A stretch of DNA of 64,000 nucleotides, taken from NCBI RefSeq assembly GCF_000003815.2, contig NC_049982.1, positions 20,924,737 through 20,988,736 of the forward strand. The letters run 5' to 3'. The position numbers and the translations under genes are program-made. The notes under the pieces were generated by a model. It worked only from the letters and a program-made list of their open reading frames with translations, was not told the origin of the DNA and did not search any database. Each line of letters opens with the position of its first letter. The stretch's first letter is position 1. Of this stretch, positions 10,805 through 36,514 are shown in pieces. Source of the stretch: Branchiostoma floridae. Its lineage: Eukaryota; Chordata; Leptocardii; Amphioxiformes; Branchiostomatidae.

Positions 10805-13800
10805 TCAGCTCAACAGCCATCCCATGGTACCGAGCAGCAGTGTTGTGAAGAGGACACTGGTTTTACTCCAGGTTGTCGCAGAGGAGTAAACAGCTTGTGG
10901 AGTACCAACTGAAAGGACATCACACACTGGTTAGAGACCAACTTATGATAAACTTGCCTGGCTCATAGGTTTAGATAGTATAGTCTAGAATTGTTTGAGA
11001 AGGAAACATTGGTAAAAGACCCAGCATAACAACCCAGTGGTAGGGCACATAAGCTACACAATAGAATATCTTAAGGTGTGCAGGCTTTTACAGCCTCTCT
11101 CATCTATCGAAGCAAAACAGTCTTAATTTTGGTAACCTTAGGGGTGCTTTTCCTAAAGTCTATTTATGGTTTTTGACAGGCACAATTCCAGACAGACTTT
11201 TTGTGTAGAACAGACTTACCGTAGCTCTTGCAGCTGTCTCCTGGTGCATACTTCCCCAATTCACTAGCCTGGCTCCCAGACACCAATGCTTCCACTTTAC
11301 TGCGCTCAATGTTGCCTAAACAGGATATTAGAACAACACAGATCTTTAATGACAGTGAAAAAGCATACACTAATGAAAACTGTACATCCTCTTCCAACAT
11401 GTCTTTTTACATGCACAATATGACTGATTTGAGATTTGGTAAGGGAATCCAGCAATTCAAGCCAAAACTATTATCTTGACAGAAAGCTGGCTGAAATGAT
11501 ATTCAAGACGTCATAACAAATTTACAAGGAATTTTTCTCACTCCAAGTCCGTATTTAAAGGCGTCACTTGCGCAGATTTTACTCAGCATGTACTAGTAGC
11601 CATCCCCTGGCCCCAGACATGACTGCAATTCACTGCGGCTCCATGTAATAAACTACTTGTAATATGATAATCATTTTCTCACCAAGGACATAGAATGTCA
11701 CCTCCTGGCACTCTCGTATGGTGTTGGTCTTGGGCACGTAAAAGATGGCAACTTTCCACACCGCGATCTCCAACAAGTTAGCTACCGTGGTTCGGAAGTC
11801 AGTCCTTTAAGGAGAAATAATGTATCCAAATGAATGTGGGCATCATTCGTGTTACAGATGCAACATAAAGCAATATGCAAGTACCTGGATTTACAACCCT
11901 GCCTAAATTCAAAATCATACATGTAACGTTATATGGAGACATATTCCAAAGACTTGCAAGGGTTTACATGAGCCGATTTTTCACACTTTTATGAAACATG
12001 CAGTAGCCACATATTTTGACTTACGAGTCAAAGTTGTCGATGGGTGGGAAAGCAATGGTGGCTGTCTGCGTCATGGGGCGGATAGTGCCACACCCCAGCC
12101 TGCCACCCCCGCCATTAGCCTCGTGTATCACAATGGAACGGCCCACAACTGTGTGGAGAAGAGGTAAGAAAATTTTGAATACAAGTGATGGACCAACATG
12201 AACCAACATCAGACCAGGCGCAGTTTTTGAACTACATATTCCAAACTTTGACACTGTGAAGGTTCAAATAATGCCAACTAGACTGCATACAGGCTTACCT
12301 GTGAGGACTTGTGAAAAGTGTGTAGTAATTGCTGCAATGCTGGCATTACATGCTAAGAGTTTGTCTGACAGAAAGACAGAATACCTTACCTGTGAGCTCG
12401 CCGTACAGTGGAATATCCACATCAGTGTAGACTCGCTGCCCCCCTCCTACAGCATACTTCCCCTGTTTCCCGCTCAAATCTCCCAGCTCACAGCGCAGTG
12501 GGTTTCCTGGCTTACACCGGGTGGCATAGTTCCCCTGTAATTCACAAAATAAAGATACATGTTGGAGGCACCTGAAACCTTCTACACGTGTTTCATCTTC
12601 ACTTTCAGTCAAATTCTTAAAGCAGGTAACTTACCTTTACCCTGAATGATGTAATATCCAAGCAGATATGATACCATGTTCTAGCTAATCTTTTTCATGT
12701 CCTTTACTAACACCTCACCACAATACCAAAAAAAAAATATACCACCTGAAAGACATGCAAAAAGGCAGCTTAAAAATACACAATTCTGCTTGCATTTCAT
12801 CACTGTTGTTATGGTAGTCAACAAAGTCTCACCCCCAGGTCAGCATTGTAAGGGTTGAAGTGTCCTCTGCAGCTGGAACATCGAGACGTGACAGCGTTCT
12901 CATCACCGGTCACGGGCTGTTCATGGATGTGCCAGCTGTGGTCAGACGTCTGCAAAGTAACAACACAGGAGAAATGAAGGATGTGTTGATGGCGGTCAGA
13001 CATCAAGGTAATCAGGTAATAAGAATTGTACAATACAAACAATACTCAATGCAACAGGATAGATTTTGTAAATGGTCCAGTCACCTTGTAAAGTTTGTAT
13101 TGCAAATTCTTATTAAAAAACATTCCTCATTTGTTTCCTTGAGTGCTTTGATTATCCGTACACTGTACTATCAATCAAGATGTTCTCATGTTAATCCTAC
13201 AGAGAATCAGCAACTATTACATGTATACTCATGTATTATCTGTGGAAGATGGGAATGTCCCAGAAGAAACAAGAGTCTGAAAACTCAAACCTGCATGAAA
13301 TATTTTGTTTTGTGATGGTGCGAATGGTGTGTTGTGGAGTTGATATGGTTTGACGTTTGGCAAAATTATTTCATCATTGTTCTTATATAATATCATCTAC
13401 CTGTGGTAAATGGTGAGATCCAAAACTACATCTTTCTAGTGACGTACCTCACCATTCCATTTTTATTTGCTATTGTTACACCTGCACCTGGCACATATCC
13501 TTAATGTGTATATAATTGTTCATTCCATACAGAGGTGACAGGGATGTTCACAGTTACTCTTTCTACTAGTTGTGGATCTGTGCAGCCATTGGCTATATAT
13601 CCCTAATGTGTATATATATAGTGATTCACCCAACACAGTGGTGACAGGGGTGAATAATTGCCCCAGCTGGCTTGCTCTAGTATTTACCAGATGAACTAGG
13701 ACCACTTTACTCCTGTCAAAAAGACTCCTGTCAAAAAAACTGCAGCAAATGCATGCTAAAGCACAATGTCTCACAATATCTACGCCCATAGCAAATGTGA

Positions 13801-16800: not shown

Positions 16801-19800
16801 GTACAAATCACATTTACTAAGAGTTCTTGTGGGTTGAAAATCAAATTAACTTTCCCTTTTAAGTCAGAAAACAGGGAGCTTAAGAAATTAAACATCACAG
16901 AAAATTTGGCAAGTGACTTGGCAACTTTTTGCACTTCTAGCCAGAATTCCTATAGAAATCCTGGCACCTCACAGGAAATGGAAGGAATTTTGCATCAATG
17001 GTATGAAAATTTTTTCAGCTCTTATTTCCTGCCTCTAAGCAATATGTTTATCATTGGTTTAGACCTAAGTAGATTAAACCATCATTGTTCTTGTTTGTCC
17101 ATGGAAACTTGGCTACATGGATGACAGATACTGTTTTCTTGTGTGGCTGCTGACAACATATGAGCACCATTTTCACCCCTCCCAGACTGGTCTTGACAAT
17201 GGAAATGATGACTAAAAGTAATGGTGTCGTACCTGTTTGCTGGCATCCTTGGCATACCTGATGTCCACCTGGAGGGTGGTGTCGCCCCCGCTGCCATCCG
17301 CATAAATTACCTGAGTCTGCAACAGGTAAAACATCTCCAGTCAAACATACAAGTGTTACACATAGATATTACAAGGGATTTTTAAAAAAAGACATTGATC
17401 CCATAACAAGTAGCATTGTTTGAATATCTGTTGTGACAACCCATTTGTGTGCTGTCAACTTGCACACCACTAGCAGAGATACCTGCTGAATTTAAGATGT
17501 TATCACACTTCTTGTAAAGAGGTTGGCCCCAGACTGTAATGGCCAAATTAGTCTGGACTTCTATAGCACTCACCAGAACAATTTTGCCTGTGATGGTATT
17601 GTCACCCGCCGGACTTATGGCTTCAAACTCAGCCATAGCAGACACCGTGGAGGCATCCACAGGCAGTACTCTGGTCAGGTTTGCACAGTGCCACCTGCCG
17701 CCGCTGTTGTCGTGGATTACGATCGACCTTCCAATGGAACTGTACGTCCCAAACAGGGGAAGGTTACCATCCTCATTAGTCTCTGAGAAACCCGTCTGTC
17801 CCTGCATGGAGCCATATTTGCCACTTAGGTCTCCGATTTCGTACTGGTCGCTCGTCCCACTTCCACTAGCAGGACTGTTGGCAATGACGACGTTGAAAGG
17901 GTTATAATGTCCGGCAACAGACGCTGCACTGCACGGGTTGTCTTCTCCAAATGGTACAGGGAGCTTGTGCACGTGGTACGTATCTGCATTATTACTCAAG
18001 CCAGTTACATCGATAACAGTGGTGGTGGAGTCAAACGGAGATGCCTGGGTTACGCTAAAGGTTCCTGAGATGCTGACGCCCCCCTGAGCATGCCATGTCT
18101 GAGTCGACACTTCCACAGCTGGCAGCTGAAAAATGTTTGCACAGGCCAGCCTCCCACCACCAGAGTTTGCCTGGTGAATCACCATAGAGCGACCAATCAC
18201 AGCCTCCGGACCGGACAGCGGGAGCTCGACGTCAGTGTAAAAGTTCCTGCTGATGCTGTCTTCCGAGCCCACGTCAACTTTCCCGTGTTTGCCAGACAAA
18301 TCGCCAAGTTCACAGCGGAGGGGATTGTTTCCATTGCATTGGGAGGCATAGTTCCCTGAAAGGTCAACTGCATACGGGTTGAAGTGTCCTGCCGTGCTTG
18401 AGCACCTGTTTTCCACAGCGGCGTAGTCCAAACCCAGGGAGTCCTCGTGCACATGCCAGCTGTGGTCTGAAGTCCCAGCCGTACCATCGATATACGACAC
18501 AGTAAGGAACACCGAGGTGTCCAAATATGGCTTGTCTTTAACCTGCCGTAGGACCATGTGACCGGCAATGGGAGTCTTGAACACTGCCATCGCTGTGATC
18601 ACTTCTCCAGGGTAACCGATGTTTGCACACACCCATCTACTACCAGTCGTATCGTGGATTATAACTGATCGACCAACAATACTGTACCGTCCATACAATG
18701 GAAGGTACCAGTCAGTATTCACAGTAGACACAGTGTCCATTCCATTGAAATTACCAAACTTTCCACTCAAGTCACCAAGTTCGTACTGATCACCAGTACC
18801 TGCAGCGGGATCAGGATAGCTGTCAGAACTCGGGACCTTGCCAAAAGGGTTGAGGTGCCCTGCAGTGTACGTTCCACTGCACATGCTCTCATCAGCTGCC
18901 TTAGCTGGGATTGGGTACTCGTGGACGTGGTAGTTGATTGCATTAGCTCCAATGTTGTTAATGTTTATGGTGACGGTGGTGTACTCATACGGTGAGTTCT
19001 GGGAGAAGACCATAGTACCTTTCACCCCACTCATGTCAAACCTTGCAGACACTGACACTGCTTCGAGATGGTAAATCTCTGCACATGCCAGGACAGTGTT
19101 TGAAGAGTCCTTCAGAATAAGAGATTTTCCAACAATGGTACTTCCACCAGACAAGGCCAAACCGCTCTTCGTGTCAAATTTCCTCCCACTTCCACTAGTG
19201 GCTCCAATCATGGTTTGCCCCAGGTCGGTAACGACGCTGCCTGTTGAGGCACAGCGTGTCGCCAGGTCTCCACTGCTGCTCGGAGCGCTGCTGCGTACCT
19301 CCCAGTTATTACTGGTGTCCGCGGCAGAACCGGTGTTCTGGCTATAGAAGAGGTTTGATATTATGATGGTTGTAGCAGATGGGTCGTCTGACTGCTGACG
19401 AAACATGACAACTCCACTGACAGGGCCACCAAACTTGGCTATGGCAGTCTTCATGGTGACAGCCTCTGGGAGGATGGTGGCACAGCGGACATTGGTGTTG
19501 TCACTGGTGTCAGTCAGAAGCACAGATCTGATGGAAACAAAACAGGACTTTTCAAAACCCTATTTTATTGTTAAACAAAGTATAAAACAATACCTGGCCA
19601 TAGACAAAATATTGGCTTACTGAAACTAAGCATAACCAATGATCATTGACACATGAAACGTTAATTGAGCTGTGTAACTATACCAAGCAAACCTTGCTTC
19701 ATTTAGCACATGGCAACTTAGCCAAAATGATGGCCTTGATTACATAGAACCATTCATATGACAAAATATATAAATGTTTTGTAGGCTAATATTGAGTCCA

Positions 19801-22800
19801 GTAACTAGTGAGTAGTCTACCCACCTGTGAGACAAGGTTTTCCCACTAAGGTCTGATGTAACAGTAGTAGTAGGATTGATGGCTGCACTGATATCATGGT
19901 AAGACTCTCCCAGATTTGAACATGGCGCTGCTGTGTCGTACGCCACGGGGAATGTACGAATCTGCATCCCCCACGTGCCACTGAGTCCAGTCAGAGCGAT
20001 GTTGACACTCGTAGAGGCAGTCGGCTCTTGGAACGTTATGTCCCCTGTCACTCCTCCCATGTCCAAGGTTGCCTTGTAGGTTAGGGCATGACCCCCTCCA
20101 CACACAGTCAGCCCTGCAGGGGTACAGAGAACAAAGGTATGAGAAGAGAGTCATTCATCCTGGACAATCCACTAATCAAAAATGTGGCTATCTATCAAAC
20201 TTGATACACAAACTAACCTGGAATCCAGTCTCTCGCTCGGCCTTATACCGTAGTTAGTGCAGGCTCTCTACGGGGCCAGGGAAGCTCCCAGCCGCCGGGG
20301 TAAATGGCCACACCCGGTAGTATTTTCACGGGGTTAGACTTTAGCCCAGGGGGTTAATTATCCGGCCTAGCGAGGCCGGCAATTAACCCCCCTGGGCAAA
20401 GTCCAACCGCGTGAAAATTCTACCGGGTCGGGCCAATTATCCCGGCGGCTCAGACCCACAGTGGCCCCGTAGAGCGCCTGCACTAAGTACGGTAGGCCGA
20501 GCCAGCGAGAGACTGGATTCCAGGTTATACACAAACAGGCCGTCTCAAGGAAGCCTCATCATGATGCCTTAGTCAGATTGCCCAGTGCAACCTCAGCCAA
20601 ACACAAGGTTGCCCATAAACATTTCACTAGTCAGGTTGCCACAGGTTCAAGGCCCTAATCATTATTTATACTTATAGTTTTGGGTGTGTCTGTCTTTGTA
20701 CTTATTCTGCTGTGATTAACAATGGATTTGATCCTTGGTGGACAGAGCAATAGGCCACTCTCATGACACTTGCTGTCCTCAAGCAAAAAGATAGCGCACT
20801 GCGCTACTTAGTGTTTGAAAGTAAATTGCTCAAACAAAATATGGTTGCACTGTGCAATTGGGCAACTGGCCAGGTATTTCAAACCCTGCTAGGGTAGGCA
20901 GGATTGCAGCAAGTTACTGGACTCTAATGCACAGAAGTTGATGCACTAGCACTACATCAGGATGTCCCCTTTCAACAACCTCAAATAAGTAACTATTGAT
21001 ATACTGGCCTTGACATTTATAAAACTTGATTCAGTGTATTGTGTGCATGCAGAGCCTTTGATCTTGACAGTCCTTTGAAAAGACACAAATATACAATAAC
21101 AGTTCTTTGGCCAAGGACATTTATAGTGCTCTTGCTTTGACACACCCAACTGTAGCATTGATTTTCAGTATTAGAGCTTGAAGTGCCTTGAACAGACTTT
21201 AAGTTATTGCAAAGTTCAAAGATGTTTTGACGTTGTTTGTCAAGGACAATGCTGCCCTATCTAGGGCTGGGTACCGGTACCGGTACAAAACCGGTCCAGA
21301 AAAACCTGACCTGAAAAAATTCCGTAGACCAGATGTTGGACCGATTGGAAAATGAACTGAGTCAGGCATTCGCATGTTTTCGGGGTTACCGGTCTAGGCA
21401 AATAACAAGAGCGCAGCAGAGTAGTCTAAGACTCTATAGTCATCTTAACCAACTTTTACAGTCAATCTTACAGAGGTAGTTAGCCTTGTAGGATTTTTAA
21501 AATGCCAGTGGGAGTCACACACTACACAAAACAGATTTCTTTGTACCAAAATGGAACATTGTTTTGAGTATCATCCATTCGCAAGTTTTCACATAATGAA
21601 TCAGGTCCAGGTTCAGGTAAGGGGGTTGGGGTTTTGTGCGCGTGAAGAATTTGCGCGTGAAAACTTGCGCGTGAAAAATCTGCGCGTGACAATATGCAAA
21701 TTAGCTGATTCCCAAGGGATTCAAAAAGTTTTTGCAGATTTATACTTAAAAGCTCAAACAAGATGGCACAAAATGGAATTAATCATCATATTGTTGCATT
21801 ATAGAGTACAAAATCTCGATCTGAATGATTTACAATTGATTTTTATATGTAAACTGTTCACGCGCAAAAAAGTTTGAAATTTGCGAGTGAAACAATCTGC
21901 TTAAAAAAATATGAAATGAAGCTTCTTGAATGGAGAAAAGCCTCAAATTGTTACATTTTACAATATAAAACCTCATATGAGTAATTTTTCCATTTATTTC
22001 TGTCAAATTTACGTGATTTTGAAATGTTCAAAATATGCAAATTAACCTATTCCCAAGGGATCTAAAAATCAGGGTTTTTTCAAACCAAAAATTCAGGTAA
22101 CAGATGGAAAATTATATCATAGGTTCAAATTTTTCTGCCATAGAATTCCTTGCTGCAGATTTTTTTACATATTTCAGGAACTTTATTTTTCACGCGCACA
22201 TTTTTCACGCGCACGCGCAAATTCTCCACGCGCAGAAAACCCGTTCCCAGGTAAGGACCTGGACCTGATCCTCTGGACCTGAACCTGAACCGGACCTGAA
22301 TGTTCTGTACCGGTACCCACCCCTAAGCCCTATCCACTCCAGACATACTCACAGTAGTACACAATAACTGGATGGCACTTGTCATGGTTTGTGGTGGTTT
22401 TCAGTTCTGTTTGCAACCTGATTCTGAACCAACATCAGACGGGGAATTTACCTGCAGAAGTTTTTAATTACCACTTCTTATCACATGTGGAATATTGGAT
22501 CTATAATATGCAGCAGACCAATAGTCAAAGAACGATAGTCAAACCACCTCAACGCCCATATTCTGGGCCAGATTGCCTCGGGTTCTAGAACTGGCTTAAA
22601 AGCAGGGCAGCAGAAACAATTAAGATCTTCCAAGAAGCTGGTTTCCCACAGAAACTGGTCTATCCTCTCCCAGCTAACCTGGTTACCAAACCCCAGCCCG
22701 ATCTCAAGAATCTATCGTGCAACACAAAAGATATTTTTGAGGTTGGGGTAAAGTATCGAGGCTAACTCCCAGCAAATGCGGTCTGCCTAAACACCTCAAA

Positions 22801-25800
22801 CGGCTGTAATAAACAGTGTACATGGGGCAATAACCATGTTTGCTGCTCTCGATACATTGTTTATGCATTTATGAATCAAAAATCACAGCAAATCCTAAGT
22901 ATTTACTAGTTATCTCGAGTTAAGTCCGCTGGTTTCATGACCAAAGAAATCTAAGGCCGAAATATTGGATCATCTGCATTTAATTTTAAAGAGTCATGCA
23001 TGGGGCAGTTCTAGCCTTCTTCAGTCCACATACGGCAGTACAATTAAACTGTTGATGCTGTTGGCTCATTGATTAAAGCATAGCACAATTCTATCATTGT
23101 CAACTTATAATAGCATATTACTAGTAAGTGTTTTTCAGCCTCAAATTGCTTCAATCTTAAAACCGACTAACCAACTGTTTGAGGCGTTTAGGCGCAGACC
23201 CCAGCAAATGTGCACAGTCTATTTCCTGGAACTGGATTTATTCTATTTACACAAACAAAAGAAATCCAGCTTACTTCTGTCCCATTGCACTCCACAAATG
23301 TTGGAACTGTGAATCATCTCCTGTATTGGCAGACAGGCCGTACCTGGTCCTACGCTTCCTTCCCTCAAGACGAGGAAAGACCACAGGTCAACCTGACTAC
23401 ATGGAGTCTACCGAATGTTCAAATGTTTAACATTTGCTCATGCTTTTTTTTTCTGGTGTGATTGTGTAAAGACCACATGTTAAACAAGGATTACTTTTTT
23501 TTCTTAAACTTTCTTCAATCGAAGGGTCAGGTTTTTTTTTTACACTCTGAGAATCTTCCACTGACTGACAACAAGATGAGAGAAAGTTATTTTTCATGTT
23601 TAACTTTAACCAAGGAGCTTGACCGTTTGGACAGAAGGCTGAATACACTCTGCCTCATATGTCACAATCCCTTAGATTTGATCTATCAGAAGTCTAGCAT
23701 ATACATATTACATATTACATGTACGTAATAAATACTATATTAACTTGGAGAACTTCAGAGATTGTCGACTGATGTGCAAAATAGAAAGATAGAAAAATTC
23801 ACAATTTTCCCTCTCAAAATCTGCTTGCAGCTTAGGAGGTCATGAATATCATCACATATGTGAGGATTGAGGAACGTCTGTCTAATTTCTACAATGAGGT
23901 GATAATGGGCACCAATCAGGCTGGATCAGGTGTGATCCGTGTTGTTTAACTTGGTGATATGGAGACAATCACCAAACAATACTGCAAAACAACAACTGGT
24001 GGTAAAGAGTGAATTCAGGTGAGAAACCTAACAGCAATACACACCTGAGACAGAATATTTAGCACTTGAAGCTAATCCTGTTGATAAAAATGCAATGACT
24101 GTAAATTGTGTTTTGTTACTTTAATTTAATACTAATAGGGTAAGGAGGTAAGGAAGGGAGAAATGTCCTGGATACCATCCTGTTTCTACCGAGGCTCCCT
24201 GCACTTGCTGCTCTAAAAAAAATTATAGAACCTATATATACTAGTAATAGGTTTGGAAACCATGCTACCTAAAGTCTATATTTGAGACTGCACAGTTAAA
24301 TGTGTTACACTACCTCTCACTTTTCTACACAGCTGAGCATATAGCATTTTGTTTTCTTTTTTTCCAAGCATCTAACGTTATCCAAAAAAAGTATTTTTTT
24401 TACCTTGTTGAATCAATCAATCAACATTTCAACAAATTCAACATCACAACAAATGTATAATAACATATAAACCCGCAAATTGATAAATAAAGACACAGCA
24501 CCATATGTAGAGGTGCTTATCAACAACAACAATTTACAACTTTTACAAGTTCATCGCTAAAATTTGAAGACTAGTAGGAGACTCTAGCCGGCAGGGTATC
24601 AATTTCTTTCATCCAACGCCTGGGGAGGTGTCGAGCAAGGAGATTTGTTTGCTGACTAGATCCCTGCATGACATCTCCCCAGAGTGCTATCTAAGGTTGG
24701 CGGGAAAAACATGTGAAGTCTTGTAACGAGCCTGGCAAGAGTCTGGCTCCGAGGGTTGATCAGAGAAGATTCAAGGATGTAGGAAAGGGCAGTGTTACAC
24801 GACCCTGGTTTAGTTTCTCATATTGCTGGGCTCTGAGACTCATTAATGAAACATTTGCTCAGTTACTTCATAATCTAGCGCCTATCAATATTCCAGGTTG
24901 TGCATGAACTTTTGGTGAACTTCTGGTGTGGAAGGGAGGGCGGAAACAACTGCAGAGTCACAGATAAAGCCTTACATAAGCATACGTCCACTACAAACAA
25001 GCAAAGGCTTTTAGGTAACGCTGCTATATCTGGGTCAAAGTACAACCTTCGGCAGACCCCACATCCACCCCTATCATAAATCAGGCCCGCAAATGCAAGC
25101 CTTCTGCGCTCGGGCCGGTCCCATGCCAGGCACCGCCGCCCCACCAGCCAGCTCCCGCGGCTACCCCAACCCCTCCATGCATTGCAGCGCTTTTACTCAC
25201 CGACAAGTATAGTCCATGGGCCAGGTCCCCAAAAATGGCCATTTGGTACCAAATAAAGGGACAAAGGGTGACTTAGTTTTTTGAAAAGGTTGATTCCTCT
25301 ACTTTATTATTTTGCATGATAACCGTGTCAGATGCCCAGCTTTATAGGAATTATCACGTGATTTTGTGACGTCACTCAAATCTATAGAACTACCAAAAAT
25401 CGTTTATTACAGGTCAGTAATTGTGGTTTTGATAATCCCCAACCACATTTGATGAGTATTTCTCTGCACTTAGATCATACAAATACCTGTTGAATATATT
25501 TGGAACCATTTTGAAATAAACTTAGACAAATTTCTACAATGGTTGCCATGGCAACGGTGAAAAATAACATTTTCTCACAGGAAAGTTGCTAAACAAGCCA
25601 TTGTTTGATGCTTTTGAAGTTTGGCCATTATCAAGGCATGACCAATGACACTGAACGATTCATAACTAATGTAAGGGCTTTAAGAAAACATTTTAGTTAG
25701 GTAAGAAATAAGTAGAACTATCTTATATTTCAATCCATACTACAGTATGGATTGAAATACATGTATATTGTTTTTTTGCCGTGTTTCACTTGCCAAATCT

Positions 25801-28800
25801 TTAAATGGATTCAACTTTTTCATCTTTGGGCCAAATGAGTTGAAATTTGGCATGGAGGTAGAGATAGCAAATACACCCAGCATTTTTTTCTAATTTTTTT
25901 GATAAAGACCTTAAAATTTGTTTCATTTAGGGTTTTTAGCCATTTTGGACGAAAAATATATATTTTGGGCCCCTGTACCCTGGTATTGCAACCTAATGAC
26001 CTGAAATGTGATACAGAGGTGCATTGGACATATGTCCACAGGACACAACCAACAAGTTTTGCATACATCACTTCAAAAATGAGTTATTTTGGGATTTGAG
26101 GCCATTTATGACTAAAAATATATATTTTTGGATCCTGTGCCCTTATATCAAACCCAAATGAACTGAAATTTGTTTTAAAGGTGTGTAGGATATGCGCCCA
26201 CATTATTTTATTTTTACTTTTGGAATACGTTACTTGCAATTCTTAAATTTAGGTATTTTAAGCTATTTTTATACTAAAAATATATAGTTTTGTATGCCTG
26301 ACTTAGCTAAATGGAAATAATATGGAGCATAATCCAGGTCATCTTCTTCCTGTATTGAGTCAGTAAACTAATTAATTCAAAACAACAAGACTTACATGCC
26401 TTCCGACATATTTACAATATATTCAACGGGGCCAATTACAACAACGAGTCGGCAAGAGGGATATTCATTCAATTTGGAATCAATGTAAGGGACATATCAA
26501 ATGCTGATTCTATGGTATATCTTACAGCTTAGCAATACTATTTGATTAGAATCTTAGTTTCAAAGCGGATATATATACATATAGGATTGTTATAATTTTC
26601 AGTTGATTTTGATCATAATTTAGATAGGCGTTTTGAAAAGGCAGCTCCTAATGAAAAAAAAAACATTTCATGCGGAAATTGAACCATCTTCAGTCCGCCA
26701 CGCCCACAGTTCCACGCTGGCACTATCCCGTGGTATAAATAATATCAAAATTATGGGATGACATCATATTAGCAATATATTTACAACAACGGGGCCAATT
26801 ACAACGAATCGGCAAGAGGGCTATTCATTCAATTTGAAATCAATGTAAGGTACATATCAAATGCTTATTCTATGGTATATATAACAATCTTACAGCTTAG
26901 CAATACTATTTGATAAGAGTCTTAGTTTCAAAGCGGATATATATACATATAGGATTGTTGTTGAGTGAGTAGAGTTCTGGATCCCTGCCGTGCTGTTGGC
27001 GGGTAGAGAGCGCAGAAGCATGGAGATGTCTGGAGAGCTGAGTCCTAGGTGAAAGTTCTCCATCTAACGCTGCACAAAGGGATAATAAGAAATTATTTAC
27101 AAACGTGACTTAAACGTTGACCCAAATGCAAAAAAGAGCGTAAAGCTAGGAGCTCACAAGCAGCCAAACGTGATATCATTTGTATGTTATTCTCACCTCA
27201 TTATGCAGCATATTCGTCTTCATCATGATCACCATCGCTATCCTCAGTGTCATCTTGGTTGTCCTCCTCGTCCGGTCTGTTGTCGCAGTCCATACATTTG
27301 CACATGTCTGTACACTTCAAGCCATTCTTCAAGCAGCTGCACTTAGTAATCTTGCATGCTTTTGAACATGAGCACGACAACAGCTCTAGTACAGCAGTTG
27401 GGGCCGGCTCGCCATCCATCCAATCAATTACCAGCTGATCTCCGTCCTTACACCAGCCCAAACCGATCGGGCTTGGAATTACAGGGTGGCTCTCCAGACT
27501 TTTCTTCCAGATTGCTGCAACGTAGTTTGCCCTCTTAGCGTGGTTATACAAACAATCAGCACACGGTGGGAGTTGGACAGAATCAATGCTGCCTCTCTTT
27601 GCACAGAACAACCTATATCTGAGCTCATTGACGTCGCTTGTGCCTGGTCGGGAAGAGTACATATGGCAAGTAAACTCCTCTAGTTTCTTGAAAAGCTCAT
27701 TTGAGAGCTCCCAATCCATTCCAACAAGTTTGAACATCTCCTGGAAGTCCCTGTTTTCCTTGACGAGCCGAAGTGCCCCCAGCTTCCCCCGGCCAGCAAA
27801 CGCACTCACACTATCGCATCCGGTAAACGCGTGCATTCCGAGTAGACTGCTGCAAATGTCCTGGCCCCAGACCTGTGCCGCATTCGTGATACTAACATAT
27901 TTTATTCTTGAGTGCGTCCCACACTTGACAAATATCGACGCTGGAATGGACTGCTTAAAAGCCAAACAGAGTAGGAAGACGTCTGTATCTTCTGATGACA
28001 CAATCACTGTGTTGTAGCCTGACCTGGCCGCATGTGCGACATGGAGTATGATTCTGGTGTCAGCTTCCTCCTGATTTGAGTTCAAGTCTCGAACGGGGAT
28101 GGCACTCTTTGCAGAAATCTTGTGACACTCTTCCTCACAGGCTATGTAAAGCACCTTGCTGTGTAGCTTTCTTCTGTATTTGTCTTTCTTCCATTCCTCG
28201 GTGACAAATCTTGTAAGTGACGTTTTATTCTTCGGGTTCAGTACAAATTTTCTCCACTGTAGTACTTTGTGTTCGGGCTGAATATTTCTGAATTCACTCC
28301 CACACTCAGATCCTCTACGTTCTCGTTCTGCAGACTTGATGGACTCCTGTCGATACACATCGAACACAACATCTATTCTGCTTGAGTGTGATCCTTCGTG
28401 CAAAATCATGTCGAGTAGGGAATCAGCGACTTCTGAAAACGTCTTTTGATCAGCTTTTAGCCTTTGTACAAGAGCCATGCCATCAATGATGCATGCAGAT
28501 GGGTGGGGAATATTATCCGCAGCCGGTACATTCTTCTGTACTTCCTTTGCTAGTGTAGACTTCGTAGTTTTTCGTAATGATCCATCTGCAGTAGCCAACG
28601 ACCACGGAAGAGGACCCAGAGGATGGCGAAGCACATCTCTCAGTTGGAGCTTTCTACTTTCCGCTATGATGATCATCTGACCGAACAGAGCCATGTCAGC
28701 TTTAAGAATGATCTCCTTGGTCGTTTTAGCTTTGAACTTGACCTTCTTGTTCAGCTCAGAGAATGTATGGAGCTTGGCTTTCTTCAGTGTGTCGTGGAAC

Positions 28801-31800
28801 TGGGCCTGTTGTGTGTCTTTGTTGATTTCGAGGCGCTGCATGCGGAACGATTTGTATGCCTCTTCACCAACGACTTTCGCATTAAGTAGGTCCTTTTCTA
28901 TCTTTGGGGTAGCAAACCTCCCGGTTGACAGACATACCAAGTCTTGATGTTCGCTGTTGAATGGATTTATCCAGAAACGTTCCAGCATAAGAACAAGTGC
29001 GATCACATCAGCTTCGTCTCTTGCAATTCTGCTACTCTGGAGGTCAGTATGCTCAGAATGAGCCTTATGTTCATCTAGCATATCCCTCAACTGCTTCAGA
29101 AACAGGCTTCGGTATTCAGCGACAAGATAGTACTTGCAGATCGCCCCAGGCTTGAGACTGAACCCTTTAGTACCTCCTGACGTTTGTGTGTCCTTGTTAA
29201 CTGTTTCTTCGCATGTCTGATCTACCGGTATACGGCCAAATGGATTGTGGTCACCGATCTGCACTGAGAACCCACCAGAATTCAGATAGTTGAAGGCTTC
29301 AGGATGGGTTTCGTTAAGGTGAGACATGTCAAATAGGTAGGCAGGCAGGTACCGCGCATAGTTAACCTTGTCGTAGGCAAAGCACCAAGGTATCATCTGT
29401 GCTATTGCAGATAGATGTAACTCCCAGTCTCCTTCTCTTGAAGCCCTCACCAAGTTAAGCATGATCTCCACAATCTCAATGTACGACATCCAGAAGCTTG
29501 CTAACTTCCCTTTACTGTGGCGAAGAAACTCGAGGTGTTCATCGTAGAGTTTGACAAACTTGGCGAACTTCTGGTTTGCCAAAACCTTCTCCTGTTCATC
29601 CTGGCAGACATCATTGTAGAGAGGTTTCAAGCTCGCGAAGACATCCTTCACCAATTTCTGTTTCGCAGGTGATTTCTCTATCCACTTCAAAAAGTGCTTC
29701 CAAACAAGTCGTTGGAGTGCTTCGTACATCAGTTTGTGGAACCGGATTGCCCTGTTGTATTTGCGCCCTTCAAGCACTCCCGTGACTGACCCTTCTGCTA
29801 TCACTCCTGACTCTATGCAGATGTCCCTCAGACCCGCGTCTTCAAATCGCTTCCCGATGATTGACAACAGGGTGAGTAGCGTGTGAAACATACCCATTCT
29901 TGGGACAATGTCCTTGAATGTTTGAGGGTGTTTCCACATGATCTCTGTGACCTTAGCATATAGAGCCTGGTCGAAAACCAGCACTATGCTCTTAAGGTGT
30001 AGTGCGTCTTTGATTTTTAGTGACCTCATCAGGATTTCATGGACAGTCGACATGTTAGTAGCTGGTGCATCTATTGTGGGGAGGTACCCTATGCTGTCTT
30101 TGATGACGTCAGTTTCATTACGGACTAAAATGTTGTATCCGGTCCATCCGCTTACTCTCTGGCTGATTTCTCCATGTAGACGCACCAAAATCCACAGTAG
30201 GTTTCTTCTTCTCGCACTCTCTATTGCATCCTGGCAAGTGACATCTACATACCCTCTTGTCTTGGGGCCTTGGCGCTCTCCTGAATTATAAATTGGTAGG
30301 CTGACGACATCTTGCGGCTCGACGCTTCTTCTCTTACTTTTGGGTATTACTGGTGATTGCTCGCTGTAGAAACGTGGTCCAAAATGCCTTGCCTGTACTG
30401 CTATTCCGTTTACACGATGCGAGGTACCTTCGCCTGAAAGGGTCTCTTCAAGTCTGTCAATATTGTCCCATGCCAATGTGGTACTAACATAAGGCTGGAT
30501 GTTGTCTGGCAATGGGGTTTCGCTGTTTTGTTCCATTTTCTGCAGACAGAGAGCAGTGTTTATTTCCTCGAGCTGAGAATATGAGATGCCATGACCACAG
30601 CGATTGAGCATGGACACAAGCTCGACGTTGTTTGTCAAAGTCTTCACTGCATATGGTAGAAGGACGTGCTTAGGTGGCTTAATCTGTCCCCTGCTTACTC
30701 CAAACATGAGATCTTGAGCATAGGACTTCATCAATCGCTTTACTCGTGCATTGCATTCATCCACTGACACCTCTTTGCTGCCAGTAAGCAAGGTACTCAA
30801 AAAGGCAATCAGCTCTTGAGGAATGTCCAGCGCATTGTCATCGAGCTCTGCAGGGCGTGGCGGCCAAGACATAGTGCGTTCTTTGCTCAAGATAGCATTG
30901 CGAATATCTATTGCAGCTTGCTCTATGTTGGATAATGTCTTCGATGTGCCGTCATCCTTCTCGGCCATCAAAACAGTTAGCAAATTCTTGGCCATGTTCA
31001 TGGGTGTCAAGTTAGCGGGGATGAGAAACACTCCGGGTGTATCGTCGAGCAAAGTTTCAAACTTGAGCATCGCACCAAACTCTGCCTCCAGATGTCTTCT
31101 GATGTGTTTTTTCGAGGAAGGCTTACACTCCTTGATGCCCAGAGAGGTTAGATACTCAACAAGTAAGGCCGTTATTTCCGACATGCGGACAACTCTCTCC
31201 TTTTCTATCACATCCGATCTGATGTAGTGATAAAGCATCTGGTAAGCGTCGGTCTCAAGACGGGCATATTCATCATCTGCAGATTCACTCTTTCTCTCAT
31301 AGTTCAGAGTGCAGCTTGCTTCTGGTCTAGTGTAACTCTTGTAACAACTCCTGTGATAATACGCTTCTGCTGCGACTAATTCCCGGGTCACGATTGCAAG
31401 AATCTTGCTGTCATTCTTTTCTGTGGCTATCTGCCTGATGGTGTTGTCTGCCCGCATATCGCAACACTGTACTAACGTCTCACGGCTGTTTGTGCCCTTC
31501 ACATATTTGCTTGTCTTGTCACAGAAAATACAAAGACGTTCGTACGTTTTATTCGGGCTACATTTTCCTCTACTGGGAAGCCGCTTAGCTGTCTCGTCGC
31601 CACAACTTTCTGTTTCCTGCATTTTGTCAAGTAACTTCTTCATTGTAAACACACTTCTGCATTTCCGATGATACTTGATGTCCGGAATTTCTCCTTCCTT
31701 TACAGATGAAGCGATGTCTAAGAGTACTTGATGTTTGCGTATCTCTGCAGCACGCAAAAGGGTTTTCCAAGACTCTGCATCTTTTAGATGGACTAGATTT

Positions 31801-33586
31801 TCAGCGGTTTCGTTTGTGCAATGGATAGCACAACCATTTGGTTCCGATTCTACTGTGTCTAATTCACCACAATGATTGGTGTATTCATCTTCCTTGCGTT
31901 GTATCTTCTTCCGATCTTCGCCATTGATCTCCACAGCCTTTCTTTTTGCCCCTTATGACGTAAAAAAGTAGGCACCGTCACTTTAAGGTTTGGTTAATCT
32001 TTTCTATAGTGAATAGCTCAGAAGTTGATTAAGTTGAAACAAGAATCGTTCACTTGATAATGCTGAAACTAAATGGCGAAATAAACATTTGAAACACTAC
32101 ATCAACATTGTATTTCTGCCTGAGTGTATACTTTCATGATCGTCCTAGCTTTACCTATATTTCAACACATACGTGTATCATCTTTTCTTTAAAGTGGATA
32201 AATAGACGATGACTTTCATGGAAAGTTCGACAAAGTTTCGCAGCCGTATTTTAGTCTGAATCCATACGAAGTAAAAAGTACTCACGTGGTTCTCCCGATG
32301 CACTGCGACTGCGTGAACGAGAGCACGGCATCTTGGCTTGCCTCAGATCAAATTCTCCAGGGCAGAGGTATCCATTTCAAGGCGCATAAAAAACGCACAT
32401 CCATTTCTAGCGATAAGCTGACTTTTTGTAAGACAAACTGTTATAGAATGCGTTCGCGAATGCACTCGAAAATTCGAAAAAATTGTGAAGAATCGAACAT
32501 GAGATCGAAAGGAAACTGCTACATTGAAAGCAACTGCTCATTACCCACCGAAAAGCCTCGCCAATCGGAATATCCATGTACGCCAAATGCCAGCTTTTTG
32601 TAAAAGTACTTGTTTTTATTAAAAGGGCAAATAAACATTTAAAAAAATGTCTTGTTTCGGCAAGCTTTGGATTTAGGATCGATTTTGCTTTGAACGCAAT
32701 TCGTAAAAAATGTAGAGAAAAAAGTCGGAGTTAACGGTACGTTACGTCAGATACCATTAACAACATGTGATGCCAAGGAACGATTGATTGACCATTAACA
32801 GGTGAAAATCGCAATGTGAAAAATGGCCGTTGCCATGGCAACCGGTGAACACCACTTTACCACAAACTTAACCATTTTTGTATGTATGGACCAATGCCCT
32901 ACTACCACCCCAAATGTTGAGAAAAAACAACATTTTGACTCGGCCACGTGGATTGTTTTATAGAGAGTCTCTTGAATTACCCATGATGCATTGCGATATT
33001 CGCAGCAATTTATTAAAAATGTCCGTTGGGTGTAATCATTGAAATACCCGTAACTCCTGATAGAATTGACGAATTTTGTTGCTTTAAAGCCCAAAATGCA
33101 GATTAAGACATGGCAAATCAAGAAAACGTATCAAACAAGGCCCCATAGGCAAGCCAAATAAATGACTGGTTTTGGAAAGTAAACAATGTCATTTTTACTC
33201 AAAAATTACCCCCAAAATTAGCCTTTGAAGACTCATAACTTCCTCAAGATACTAAATACTGACAAAAAACTTACTATTTTGTAATATTTGGGGTGTTTTT
33301 CACCTATCAACCAATTTTCAATGAAAATTATTGATCTTTTACATATTTCTCCCGTCCTTTTCAATAAATGACCAAACGGCCAGGTCAATTTGGATGACGT
33401 CACTTGGTCACGTGATTACAGTAAGAAAGCTGTGCATGACAACTGGTTATCATAGCTTGAAATAAACTTTGGACACTGCTAATACAAAAAATCCATGATA
33501 GCACTTGTCCCTTTCGGTGGTACCAAAAACCCCTCTGGCCCATGGACTAGTAGCCACGCCACAGCAGAAAAACAACACCGAGACAT
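10805..33586 (-). CDS. Copper-only SOD-repeat protein (six SOD-like domains, GPI-anchor signal); exon 1 interrupted by a transposon
   Basis: Predicted extracellular protein, about 1025 residues once exon 1 is rejoined. Exons (descending): 33586-33550 plus 25206-25201 (one exon split by the element), 20113-19825, 19527-17574, 17316-17233, 12949-12833, 12534-12390, 12148-12025, 11814-11693, 11315-11220, 10908-10805 (TGA). All junctions are GT-AG and in phase. Residues 1-22 form a signal peptide. SOD-like domains follow: A and B lack the metal histidines; C (H311, H313, H335, H402), D (H469, H471, H492, H562), E (H629, H631, H651, H716) and F (H797, H799, H820, H886) keep the HxH, GH and IH copper ligands. 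Zinc ligands are mostly lost: GDLSGK is kept, but the preceding His is replaced by Y or E. Residues 992-1025 end in a hydrophobic tail after SATTWSK, as in GPI signals. This matches the animal CSRP family; enzymatic activity is not implied. Confidence 0.9.
15599..16080 (+). repeat. Perfect tandem duplication, 2 x 241 bp
   Basis: 15599-15839 and 15840-16080 are identical base for base by eye, in an intron of the SOD-repeat gene. No ORF or inverted ends are evident. Identity this high means a very recent duplication or an assembly artefact from two haplotypes. Confidence 0.92.
20204..20536. mobile_element. Palindromic MITE (20214-20526) with 10-bp flanking direct repeats
   Basis: AACCTGGAATCCAGTCTCTC at the left edge is mirrored by GAGACTGGATTCCAGGTT at the right. 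The arms stay complementary, with mismatches, for most of the roughly 312 bp around a GGCCTAGCGAGGCC-like centre. The direct repeat ATACACAAAC occurs at 20204-20213 and 20527-20536. The element is GC-rich compared with its surroundings and lies in intron 1 of the SOD-repeat gene, about 100 bp upstream of the exon-2 acceptor. Confidence 0.85.
21262..22326. mobile_element. hAT-like non-autonomous transposon, about 1.07 kb, 8-bp TSD
   Basis: The left end TAGGGCTGGGTACCGGTAC is inverted at the right as GTACCGGTACCCACCCCTAA. The 8-bp direct repeat GCCCTATC flanks it at 21254-21261 and 22327-22334. Subterminal arrays of GCGCGTGAAAA (about 21638-21690) reappear inverted as TTTTTCACGCGC (about 22188-22235), and GGACCTG repeats lie inside the right end. 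No transposase frame is present, so it would need a transposase in trans. Confidence 0.88.
22335..25200. other. Intron 1 of the SOD-repeat gene, left of the big transposon
   Basis: No coding exon was found here. A weak inverted pair (GGTCTGCCTAAACACCTCAA near 22779 and its divergent complement near 23178) suggests an old MITE. A CCTGGATACCATCC-type fragment near 24168 belongs to the family seen at 63576-63653. Position 25200 is the G of the exon-1 donor, read GTGAGT on the minus strand. Confidence 0.6.
25201..25209 (-). other. 3' fragment of SOD-repeat exon 1 plus left TSD copy
   Basis: On the minus strand this reads TACTTGTCG followed by the donor GTGAGTAAAA. TAC is the transposon's target duplication (GTA on the plus strand, 25207-25209). 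Joined to 33586-33550 without the element and without one TSD copy, the frame reads MSRCCFSAVAWLLV plus one G. That G completes the first codon of exon 2 (GG at 20113-20112), giving ...LLVGLTVCGGG. Confidence 0.88.
25210..25224 (+). repeat. Left terminal inverted repeat of the 8.34-kb element
   Basis: TAGTCCATGGGCCAG; the first 15 bases are identical to the reverse complement of 33535-33549. The outer base sits next to GTA, the proposed target duplication. Confidence 0.9.
25775..26310 (+). repeat. Degenerate tandem array, roughly 170-bp units, inside the transposon
   Basis: Three to four units each contain AAATGAnnTGAAATTTG, then a GGTGnATnnGnATATG-like stretch, then TTTnAGCCATTTTnGACnAAAA followed by ATATATATTTT. 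Unit starts are near 25830, 26000 and 26150. They are diverged from one another. The array lies between the left end and the 3' end of the ORF. Confidence 0.65.
26411..26960 (+). repeat. Direct repeat pair (about 180 bp each) inside the transposon
   Basis: 26411-26590 and 26771-26960 share GGGGCCAATTACAAC, TCGGCAAGAGGG, ATTCATTCAATTTG, TCTATGGTATAT and AAGCGGATATATATACATAT in the same order. The copies are about 93-95% alike by eye, apart from a small insertion. The spacer holds a TATAAATAA box (about 26734) that could be a promoter reading away from the ORF, with no gene visible after it. Confidence 0.8.
27201..31934 (-). CDS. Transposon protein, 1577 aa: Cys/His modules, putative transposase core, XPG-type nuclease, CXC domain
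   Basis: Single intact exon. Residues 35-100 and 130-205 are two related modules ending YHRKCRSVFT and YHRSCYKSYT, the second starting CIFC, so probably metal-binding. A central region (about 575-950) has FDQ (D655), then VNYARYLPAYLFDMSHLNETHPEAF and NPFGRIPVDQTCEETVNKDTQ (D905, E909, E910). Such NY.RYLP...HPE...E blocks recur in multicopy, intronless invertebrate proteins and may hold a DDE-type catalytic site (inference). Residues about 1147-1400 look like an XPG/FEN nuclease: IDGMAL (D1151), VVFDVYRQESIKSAER (D1192), NQEEADT (E1289, E1290, D1292), SSEDTDVF (E1315, D1316, D1318) and TGCDS (D1374). Residues 1521-1552 form a tesmin/TSO1-like CXC block (CSCSKAC...CSC...LKCTDMCKCMDC), then an acidic tail. 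No nonsense codon or frameshift is seen. Confidence 0.85.
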   Translation of the reverse strand: MEINGEDRKKIQRKEDEYTNHCGELDTVESEPNGCAIHCTNETAENLVHLKDAESWKTLLRAAEIRKHQVLLDIASSVKEGEIPDIKYHRKCRSVFTMKKLLDKMQETESCGDETAKRLPSRGKCSPNKTYERLCIFCDKTSKYVKGTNSRETLVQCCDMRADNTIRQIATEKNDSKILAIVTRELVAAEAYYHRSCYKSYTRPEASCTLNYERKSESADDEYARLETDAYQMLYHYIRSDVIEKERVVRMSEITALLVEYLTSLGIKECKPSSKKHIRRHLEAEFGAMLKFETLLDDTPGVFLIPANLTPMNMAKNLLTVLMAEKDDGTSKTLSNIEQAAIDIRNAILSKERTMSWPPRPAELDDNALDIPQELIAFLSTLLTGSKEVSVDECNARVKRLMKSYAQDLMFGVSRGQIKPPKHVLLPYAVKTLTNNVELVSMLNRCGHGISYSQLEEINTALCLQKMEQNSETPLPDNIQPYVSTTLAWDNIDRLEETLSGEGTSHRVNGIAVQARHFGPRFYSEQSPVIPKSKRRSVEPQDVVSLPIYNSGERQGPKTRGYVDVTCQDAIESARRRNLLWILVRLHGEISQRVSGWTGYNILVRNETDVIKDSIGYLPTIDAPATNMSTVHEILMRSLKIKDALHLKSIVLVFDQALYAKVTEIMWKHPQTFKDIVPRMGMFHTLLTLLSIIGKRFEDAGLRDICIESGVIAEGSVTGVLEGRKYNRAIRFHKLMYEALQRLVWKHFLKWIEKSPAKQKLVKDVFASLKPLYNDVCQDEQEKVLANQKFAKFVKLYDEHLEFLRHSKGKLASFWMSYIEIVEIMLNLVRASREGDWELHLSAIAQMIPWCFAYDKVNYARYLPAYLFDMSHLNETHPEAFNYLNSGGFSVQIGDHNPFGRIPVDQTCEETVNKDTQTSGGTKGFSLKPGAICKYYLVAEYRSLFLKQLRDMLDEHKAHSEHTDLQSSRIARDEADVIALVLMLERFWINPFNSEHQDLVCLSTGRFATPKIEKDLLNAKVVGEEAYKSFRMQRLEINKDTQQAQFHDTLKKAKLHTFSELNKKVKFKAKTTKEIILKADMALFGQMIIIAESRKLQLRDVLRHPLGPLPWSLATADGSLRKTTKSTLAKEVQKNVPAADNIPHPSACIIDGMALVQRLKADQKTFSEVADSLLDMILHEGSHSSRIDVVFDVYRQESIKSAERERRGSECGSEFRNIQPEHKVLQWRKFVLNPKNKTSLTRFVTEEWKKDKYRRKLHSKVLYIACEEECHKISAKSAIPVRDLNSNQEEADTRIILHVAHAARSGYNTVIVSSEDTDVFLLCLAFKQSIPASIFVKCGTHSRIKYVSITNAAQVWGQDICSSLLGMHAFTGCDSVSAFAGRGKLGALRLVKENRDFQEMFKLVGMDWELSNELFKKLEEFTCHMYSSRPGTSDVNELRYRLFCAKRGSIDSVQLPPCADCLYNHAKRANYVAAIWKKSLESHPVIPSPIGLGWCKDGDQLVIDWMDGEPAPTAVLELLSCSCSKACKITKCSCLKNGLKCTDMCKCMDCDNRPDEEDNQDDTEDSDGDHDEDEYAA
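33535..33549 (-). repeat. Right terminal inverted repeat of the 8.34-kb element
   Basis: Reads CTGGCCCATGGACTA on the plus strand, the exact complement of the left end. It is followed by GTA (33550-33552), matching GTA before the left end. Confidence 0.9.
33550..33586 (-). other. 5' fragment of SOD-repeat exon 1 (start codon and signal peptide) plus right TSD copy
   Basis: The minus strand starts with ATG at 33586-33584 and encodes MSRCCFSAVAWL before the element interrupts it. A hydrophobic stretch after a short basic/cysteine start is as expected for a signal peptide. The downstream remainder of the exon is at 25201-25206, 8.3 kb away. Confidence 0.87.
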
Positions 33587-34160
33587 ATTTGCGTCTGGTT
33601 TTGAATATTCAGCTCCGGTGGAAACGCTGCTGCCGCTGACCTAAAGTTTGTTACTGTGGGAGCCCCGTCAGTACGTCAGTAAGTCATCTGACTTCGGAAC
33701 TTTCTGACTTCTTCAGTCTGTGTTTACTTAAAACAAATGGTATCGTCCGGGATCGGGAGTTTTTTACTAGGCAATTTATGGAACAAAATTCGGATTTCTA
33801 CCATAACCAATACAAGACATATAGATTGTCTTTTCAGTTTATTTTACGTTCTTGAAATTAGCAGTTTATTAAACCTTTTGTGATTAAAAAGGTTATGATA
33901 TAGCTACTTTTGTTTGCTAACCCCTCTTTCTTTTATATGGCACAGTCTGCCACCCTGAGTGGATCCGCCCCAAATTATACTGTACTGTAGCTGACAATCT
34001 TCAAGCAGATCCTACGGTGCCATAAGATAGTATCAAAGCTGGCCAGGAAGTATAGCCGGCTAAGGGAGTCAAACGGGCACCGGGAAATTTGATACTATAC
34101 ATTACGCACCGTGGATCTGGTTGGAGATTAGCCTTGACATGTATACTTTCAATCTTTCAA

Positions 34161-34310
34161 AGCAGAGGTTAGGCTCCGGCTGTTTTTGACGTTTTTAAAA
34201 TCATTTTAGTCGTTTTAAACTGGCTGACAGACTTCAAGAAACGTAAGTAAATAGAAAGCCCGATATAAACGACTAAAAACGTCAAAAACAGCCAGAGCCT
34301 AACCTCTGCT
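34161..34310. repeat. 150-bp inverted repeat (foldback MITE)
   Basis: AGCAGAGGTTAGGCTCCGGC continuing to TGTTTTTGACGTTTTTA (34161-34197) is mirrored by AAAAACGTCAAAAACAGCC and AGAGCCTAACCTCTGCT (34275-34310), with one mismatch in the arm. The spacer is about 70 bp. No clear target duplication was identified. Confidence 0.85.
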
Positions 34311-35020
34311 TGTACTAGTATACCAGGACTACAGGCCACACGTGTACAGGACAGGTTTTTGCTGTGAGAAAAGCCGGTATGTTTCCAGGCCTGGTTTCCA
34401 AGTTGCTCAATCTACAAGATACTATAGTGCATGGGTTATCGTAAGATTTTCTGACCGCCACATTTTTTGTCATGATACACTTGCCGAGGAGCAAATCTGG
34501 TCCGAAGACCAGCGTTACTGTTTGACGTTGTTTGGCGACTGACACGGTAGTAGTTTTACGCTTTACTCCAGGGTTCAACTTGACCGACAAAGTCATTACA
34601 TTTACAACCTGGTTAATACACATCTGGCAAGATTGATGAAGCGAAGTGAATGTATTAGCCGCCGCGCACAAGGTCAGTGACACTTTTTGACCGGTTCCAA
34701 TCAATAGGTTCATGTGCCTATTGTTACTGTTAGTGCAGGGTCCAATAATTGCCGTCTGCCGAGTAATTACCCTGACACCGGTTTATTGAGTATACTCTCG
34801 AGAGTACTGTTCCATGAAACTTCCATCATACCAAGGGCATACTATAGTATACTCGTGGGCCTTCGGGCGAGACAATTTGCAAGCAGAAGTTTGTAGAGAT
34901 TTTAGAAGAAGGGGTCGCGCTGTAGAAACTAATCCACGCAGCAGTACCCCATTTTACAATACATTTGGAGCGACAACGGCACGGTCGAGTTGTGCTGGTT
35001 GACGTAAAGCACACAACAAA

Positions 35021-35332: not shown

Positions 35333-36380
35333 ATAACGCGTCACCAGGTTTGCCTTGTAATAGTAATGATACCACCAACAATACACATCCATGTAAAATC
35401 ATTCCGCATGTCAACAACACCCCTATGGGCTCTTTCTATCAGACACAATCAGGTATCCTTGGTTTCTTTTGCAAAATCAGTCATGTGTATCTTTCTTCCA
35501 TTGTTCACTAACGATGTTTTCTTTGTGGATGCCTTAAGGTGTGACAAGGCGCCTGCAAAGCTGTTGTGTTAAACCGAGGTTATTATTCCCATTATTCCCA
35601 AGGAACCCCCTTGTGGGTGGTGCAACCCCTATTTTCACATAATCAAGCCACGTCTATCATCTATCTATTACTTAAAACCGATACCGATACATAGAACTTC
35701 TAATATAAACTGGATGAGACCCCTTATTATGTCTCTAGAGAAGCTTTCAAACTACTGTCCAAGCAGAGGTTGGTGGGGAAGATCGTGACCTTTCTACCAT
35801 ATGTCCCGTTTTCTGTCCACACTCCCCGAGTGACTAGCCATCACAAAAAAATTAAACTGCAAAGAAACTTAATGGAATCAATTTCAAAAACAAATGAAGA
35901 CAAGGTTGACCATTTCTCATTTGAATTATTCTAATTCTGCTTTTCGATCTCCAACTTCTCTTGGGTCGCAGAAGACTAGTATTTCAGCAGCGTCTTCTAG
36001 CGACGATCATAAATATTGTAAGGTTTCCGAATGAACTCATGATTACAAGTATACGAGCAAGGAGTCCTTTTATCCGAGTAATGTCATGACAAACTACCAT
36101 GAGTTTCCTGAAAGAAAACATATCATCACTACAGCAAAATTTACAAGGAAATCACAACGTCCACATTCTGAACTTTTTGTAGTGTTATCACTAGCAGCTG
36201 GGATACCCTTTTGCAGCCCACTTGAATATGGGACAGGTATATTGTTAGGTTTAGGGGCGCCTGGCGTGCCAAGAATGTTGGGTGGACGGATGGAGGTTTG
36301 AGTGCTACTTTCCACAGTTTATTTCTATCTCCTTTTTATATTCTCTATTCCGTATTCCGGTATAAACCGTACCTTCGTGA

Positions 36381-36514
36381 TCACATTTGGTGGATGTCCG
36401 CAGCACGCAGAGATGTAAGAAGACCGTCAGGGCAGACAGGCGCATGGTTCCCTCCCCCGGCAGCCCGGGCCACTGCACCGCTCAAGGCATGGGCCACGGC
36501 CACACACTTCACTC
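36381..36514 (-). CDS. Possible terminal exon of an unidentified minus-strand gene
   Basis: After TTTCAG (36515-36520, minus strand), 134 nt encode VKCVAVAHALSGAVARAAGG and onward to RAADIHQM followed by TGA. GC-rich and codon-like in an AT-rich neighbourhood, with a good pyrimidine tract before it. It needs one base from the preceding exon, which does not fit the phase-0 end of the 40206-40263 exon directly, so an exon is missing or this is a separate gene. The plus strand is also open here (36298-36612), so strand is uncertain. Function unknown. Confidence 0.35.

Follow-up and report, generated by a model that had tools for sequence, protein, structure and literature searches.

In the 64,000-nucleotide stretch of the lancelet genome analysed here (the window, C4:20924737-20988736), exon 1 of what reads as a complete Cu-only SOD repeat protein (CSRP) gene is split by a long DNA transposon, and we consider it very probable that this is an AcademX-like element, inserted in recent times with a 3-bp target-site duplication (TSD). 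A complete, probably autonomous cut-and-paste transposon would have entered the sequence GTA (TAC on the gene strand) through staggered cuts 3 bp apart, the subsequent fill-in of which would have left GTA on both sides; the occupied allele would be a null or a severe hypomorph, and the insertion would be young and probably still polymorphic. This is an unusually clean case of an ordinary process, the insertion of a DNA transposon in a coding exon, and not a new type of system. Its value lies in a well-delimited, intact, and apparently young element of what is, in our judgement, a little-studied superfamily, with TSD length and target preference obtained from 29 end pairs, as well as in what may be a natural loss-of-function allele of CSRP, of which no second gene was found in this genome. 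Among the papers listed by a literature search, none has a title that treats this insertion locus. The features of the element and of the interrupted gene are listed in the table.

Features of the inserted element and of the split CSRP gene (positions are those of the window)
Feature	Position	Strand	Basis or remark
DNA transposon, 8,340 bp, coding strand minus	25210..33549	-	15-bp inverted ends without mismatch, flanked by GTA; ends common to many copies
Terminal inverted repeat, left, TAGTCCATGGGCCAG	25210..25224	+	242 exact genome copies
Terminal inverted repeat, right, reverse complement of TAGTCCATGGGCCAG	33535..33549	-	inverted-repeat pair
TSD copy 1, GTA	25207..25209	.	flanking repeat
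TSD copy 2, GTA	33550..33552	.	flanking repeat
Element gene exon 1, 46 nt, MPCSRSRSRSASGEP, phase 1, GTGAGT donor	32286..32331	-	predicted
Element gene exon 2, XPG/Exo1-like motifs, C-terminal cysteine-rich CXC-like segment	27201..31951	-	predicted
CSRP exon 1, 5' fragment, start codon to insertion, 37 nt	33550..33586	-	phase and join analysis
CSRP exon 1, 3' fragment, 6 nt, then GTGAGT donor	25201..25206	-	second TSD copy not counted
CSRP exon 2	19825..20113	-	phase, splice boundaries
CSRP exon 3, Sod_Cu matches	17574..19527	-	Pfam match, phase
CSRP exon 4, 28 aa, weakest exon of the model	17233..17316	-	phase and similarity to other repeats
CSRP exon 5	12833..12949	-	gene model
CSRP exon 6	12390..12534	-	gene model
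CSRP exon 7 with stop codon	12021..12148	-	gene model

The two ends of the element are identical as inverted repeats at 15 of 15 bp. An initial annotation of this DNA had described such 15-bp ends with GTA on either side, and they are found at 25210-25224 and 33535-33549; the span that it gave, 25201-33586, does cover the element plus the exon, but the element proper is confined to 25210-33549. Across the whole genome (513,431,437 bp in 431 contigs), the exact 15-mer has 112 forward and 130 reverse copies compared to 0 and 1 for a reversed control, so these ends are not a product of chance. The TSD survey was based on the first 100 of the 242 places, with forward and reverse ends paired if they lay no more than 11.1 kb apart, and yielded 29 pairs including that of the window (58 of the 100 ends; the other 42 were unused). 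Several subfamilies are represented among these pairs, which have the 15-mer in common and diverge further inward. Of the 29 pairs, 27 have a flanking repeat of exactly 3 bp, two have none, and no pair has a longer one, whereas shuffling of the partners gave a mean of only 2.6 three-base matches. Nine pairs have the inner end sequence of the window element too, and a 3-bp duplication is present in all nine. The target triplets are AT-rich and of 12 kinds among the 27 pairs (e.g., AAA, AAG, GAT, and ACT), with A or T as the middle base in 56 of 58 flanks (two flanks per pair), a preference that GTA matches.

The same duplication length follows from the interrupted gene. When the element and one GTA are taken out, exon 1 is 43 nt long, ends in phase 1, and reads MSRCCFSAVAWLLV plus G, followed by GTGAGT; exon 2 (from 20113, after CTGCAG) provides the two missing bases, giving ...WLLVGLTVCGGGHALTYK. 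The join of the two exons reads MSRCCFSAVAWLLV-GLTVCGGGHALTYK, i.e., a signal peptide split across an intron, and the inferred empty-site gene has the uninterrupted signal peptide MSRCCFSAVAWLLVGLTVCGGGHA. The site before insertion would read GGCTACTTGTCGGTGAGT. This agrees with the initial annotation, according to which removal of the element plus one GTA restores the phase that exon 2 requires and the rest of the SOD gene is intact (the downstream exons are open, with only the final stop); its 3-bp duplication, deduced from reading phase alone, now has independent confirmation in 27 of the 29 family pairs.

The ends may also be parsed as GTA-TA-GTCC...GGAC-TA-GTA, that is, as a Tc1/mariner-like insertion at a 2-bp TA in which the extra shared base would be a coincidence. 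Such an origin is scarcely credible, as the 3 bp outside TAGTCC...GGACTA match in 27 of 29 pairs and comprise 12 different triplets, the frame of the host gene would be broken, and the element protein has no Tc1/mariner Pfam match. The 2-bp duplication itself is ruled out by the 27 exact 3-bp pairs, and it leaves phase 0 plus a stop in the gene, in line with the earlier statement that a TA duplication would break the join. The window element thus differs from Tc1/mariner in having a 3-bp rather than a 2-bp TA target duplication. It is also very unlikely that the insertion is an assembly artefact in which the CSRP gene was fused with a transposon copy located elsewhere. Lancelet genomes are highly heterozygous, as described in excerpts of PMC12862219, and hence hard to assemble, but the 3-bp duplication is perfect and the ends are complete at both junctions, and the matches listed (30 of 116 candidates) include no other near-identical copy of the coding region of the element, the next-best protein having 57% identity.

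At the DNA level, the ends of the element (approximately 1,090 bp on the left and 810-1,300 bp on the right) are common to many copies with approximately 85-93% identity, and other matches to element DNA are partial and mostly at the ends (both among the matches listed, 40 of 1567 candidates). The nearest DNA copy among the matches listed, C2:10378484-10379614, has identities of 96.7% (490 bp) and 94.6% (650 bp); it consists of two element ends joined in 1,131 bp, has its own 3-bp ATA duplication, and, judged from its sequence, is a clean internal-deletion derivative of the element.

Several further repeats were observed within the element. A perfect 17-nt subterminal inverted repeat, GGTTGCCATGGCAACGG, is located near both ends (25541-25557 and 32827-32843), is distinct from the terminal repeats, and is possibly a transposase-binding or hairpin motif. 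The left end contains three degenerate tandem units of approximately 162 bp each (25831-26295), and a diverged direct duplication of approximately 160 bp lies at 26441-26959, with copies 360-368 bp apart and 92-97% identical.

Since the reading frame of the element is not kept by host selection after insertion, its integrity sets a bound on the age of the insertion. Nonsense changes alone give a 95% bound of 1.8% substitutions per site; with indels included, the bound falls to 0.55% at 0.1 indels per substitution and 0.32% at 0.2, where the indel ratios and the fraction of frame-breaking indels are assumptions. A mutation rate of 5.89e-9 per base per generation is given in the consulted part of PMC12862219, the introduction of which prints the exponent differently. 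At this rate, the bounds of 1.8% and 0.55% correspond to approximately 3.1 million and 0.9 million generations, respectively. Two alleles are expected to coalesce 2Ne generations back, which amounts to approximately 3.4 million generations at an Ne of approximately 1.7 million. The latter value is the lancelet Ne stated in the same part of PMC12862219. The age bound lies at or below the expected allelic age, and the intact-frame range of approximately 0.9-3.1 million generations thus supports the recent insertion proposed in the initial annotation; it had also credited the gene model with dating the event, which holds for defining the duplication, whereas the age bound comes from the intact reading frames. 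The age of the insertion is probably below that of typical allelic divergence, so that polymorphism is likely.

On these grounds, the insertion is probably polymorphic and may be present on only one haplotype. A search for the empty site had been proposed earlier; run on this assembly, it gave no match to a 32-base joined-site pattern with up to three mismatches, and no second place for the flank 33550-33995 appeared among the matches listed (40 of 2664 candidates). According to the consulted part of PMC4284660, large indels cover 6.51% of a lancelet genome, 65-77% of them are ascribed to transposable element activity, and large indels of this origin are common between lancelet haplotypes. Compared to such polymorphic insertions, the window element sits in a coding exon and is probably, but not demonstrably, polymorphic. 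Two other repeats adjoin the locus, namely an abundant dispersed repeat of approximately 135 bp at 33996-34131, which has at least 39 other places with 92-96% identity (40 of 2664 candidates), and, at 34160-34311, a near-perfect inverted repeat of 38 bp whose arms are separated by 76 bp; the latter adjoins the CSRP 5' end and resembles a small non-autonomous element.

If an empty allele exists, a comparison of carriers and non-carriers would be a direct test of CSRP function, and the locus could serve as a reporter of excision. Given a 3-bp duplication, the CSRP frame would be kept after precise excision and likewise if the entire 3-bp duplicate stayed behind; by reading, a retained duplicate would add one leucine to the hydrophobic core. 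That the element is a currently mobile AcademX transposon, with the split signal-peptide exon acting as a natural excision reporter, is a tentative proposal that we regard as somewhat doubtful.

In the occupied allele, translation from the native start continues into element sequence and ends after 35 codons. On the upstream side of the 6-nt exon remnant, the closest AG is 65 nt away, at 62 nt within the element, so that exact intron-like removal of the element is impossible; the gene-strand donors before the first stop are also weak, with no more than 3 of 7 positions matched. The only phase-1 donor in this stretch past the insertion, CAA/GTGCTA, agrees with 3 of 7 consensus positions, whereas the native donor agrees with 5; it is in-frame and could in principle give a CSRP with an altered signal peptide. 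A new start within the final 600 bp of the element was considered as well and rejected, as the two ATGs there with a frame open up to the native donor give phases 0 and 2, not 1. Because translation stops after 35 codons and the element is not exactly spliceable, the occupied allele would be a null or a severe hypomorph.

The effect of the element would be small, however, if the split exon were not the working first exon and CSRP used another promoter and signal-peptide exon. When 20200-44000 was scanned for other first exons, the gene strand yielded 19 phase-1 candidates and the opposite strand 12. The highest-ranking gene-strand candidates, upstream hydrophobic segments with a GT donor at 36445-36373 and 35177/35147-35036, have hydropathy values of 2.44 and 2.23, respectively, close to the 2.39 of the native join and above the best control (1.5), which makes an alternative first exon a real rival; the in-element candidate pair, 26064/26031-26001, is weaker (1.09). 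Even so, this alternative appears rather unlikely. The split exon and exon 2 form one hydrophobic core, at the end of which there is a plausible cleavage site. With the upstream candidates, a further hydrophobic stretch would follow the one that they encode, and the two ATGs near the element end with a frame open up to the native donor have the wrong phases mentioned above. In addition, the rest of the CSRP gene is open, as expected if another first exon serves it, but a young insertion accounts for this equally well. The segment at 36373-36445 (minus strand, upstream of the SOD gene), with the candidate signal-peptide exon MRLSALTVFLHLCVLRTSTKCDHE and a phase-1 donor, may serve as an alternative first exon or may have arisen by chance.

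The single predicted gene of the element comprises two exons in matching phase and encodes 1,598 aa with no internal stop. In a Pfam scan of this protein, nothing reached the cut-off, the best match being the C-terminal CXC-like segment (E 0.013); neither XPG nor any transposase domain, including DDE_Tnp_4, was matched, and no helicase match was obtained at E up to 1. Solved structures searched with phmmer likewise contained no match with an E value of 1 or below. An alignment was then built from the window protein and eight homologues of the same genome (58, 50, 31, 31, 30, 30, 23, and 24% identity to the window protein), which were chosen from the matches listed after fragments and stop-containing sequences had been set aside. 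When the nine-member profile was compared with solved structures, four sequences of Exonuclease 1, a nuclease of the XPG family, came first with marginal values (E 0.013-0.041) and a fifth followed at 0.33, while two kynurenine formamidase rows were found in the same search (E 0.056 and 0.058). The stretches of the element protein aligned to Exonuclease 1 contain VFD..K..ER.R and GCD..S...G.GK, which we take to be XPG-family motifs. None of the nine members has a Pfam XPG match; DUF6589 is matched in two of them, the most distant ones (E 1.5e-9 and 1.1e-8), and not in the window protein.

Based in part on this weak homology, the element most likely belongs to the AcademX lineage of the Academ superfamily, and its protein would be a transposase/nuclease. 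The AcademX nuclease is of the XPG type. TSDs of 3 or 4 bp in AcademX and of 9 or 10 bp in AcademH, tied to the encoded nuclease and helicase, are described in excerpts of PMC10045372. The window element is like AcademX in its 3-bp TSDs (3-4 bp reported in PMC10045372), in being long, and in a protein with putative XPG/Exo1-like nuclease motifs (a weak match) and no helicase match, and it is unlike AcademH (9-10 bp duplications and a helicase; PMC10045372), given its 3-bp TSD and the lack of a helicase match. It is 8.34 kb long compared to a mean of 5,565 bp for the curated Academ elements of a bivalve study (PMC10294476, in part).

Another superfamily with 3-bp TSDs (PIF/Harbinger, EnSpm/CACTA, or Zator), or an undescribed one, appears improbable as the source of the element, even though its protein has no transposase Pfam match and the XPG match is weak. 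TWA is the 3-bp target trait of PIF/Harbinger, whose transposase is of the DDE_Tnp_4 type, and ends starting with CAC are likewise a trait of a rival superfamily. The window element differs from PIF/Harbinger in that 12 different triplets, extending beyond TWA, occur among the 27 pairs and no DDE_Tnp_4-type Pfam match is found, and its ends lack an initial CAC. For Zator, 3-bp TSDs are reported as well (PMC10045372, in part), but a 1,598-aa protein with XPG/Exo1-like motifs better suits a nuclease-encoding Academ element.

The CSRP gene model has seven exons with AG/GT boundaries, hand-picked for phase and similarity, and comprises 2,760 nt encoding 919 aa with the final stop only. Four Sod_Cu stretches were detected in the protein and six SOD-like repeats by reading. 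The copper-ligand motifs HVH/HIH occur only at residues 311, 469, 629, and 797, i.e., in the last four repeats, and the first two lack them. By hydropathy, a secretion signal is present only in the inferred empty-site protein. As described in excerpts of PMC13017621, members of the CSRP family have six repeats in most animals, the first one or two of which lack a copper site, and a secretion signal. The window gene is like these animal CSRPs in its six SOD-like repeats, four HVH/HIH motifs, first two repeats without them, and secreted start, and unlike them in that the window allele is interrupted in exon 1. The main text of this review has 0 mentions of amphioxus, lancelet, or Branchiostoma. 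A genome protein search with the exon 3 open frame found no second CSRP copy, its three matches all being exons of the gene itself; the same search also gave no ordinary Cu/Zn SOD and thus reaches only fairly close relatives, so that single copy here means no close second copy. In addition, a CSRP intron contains two pairs of open reading frames at 15562-16044 with near-identical translations 241 bp apart, which suggest a recent tandem duplication.
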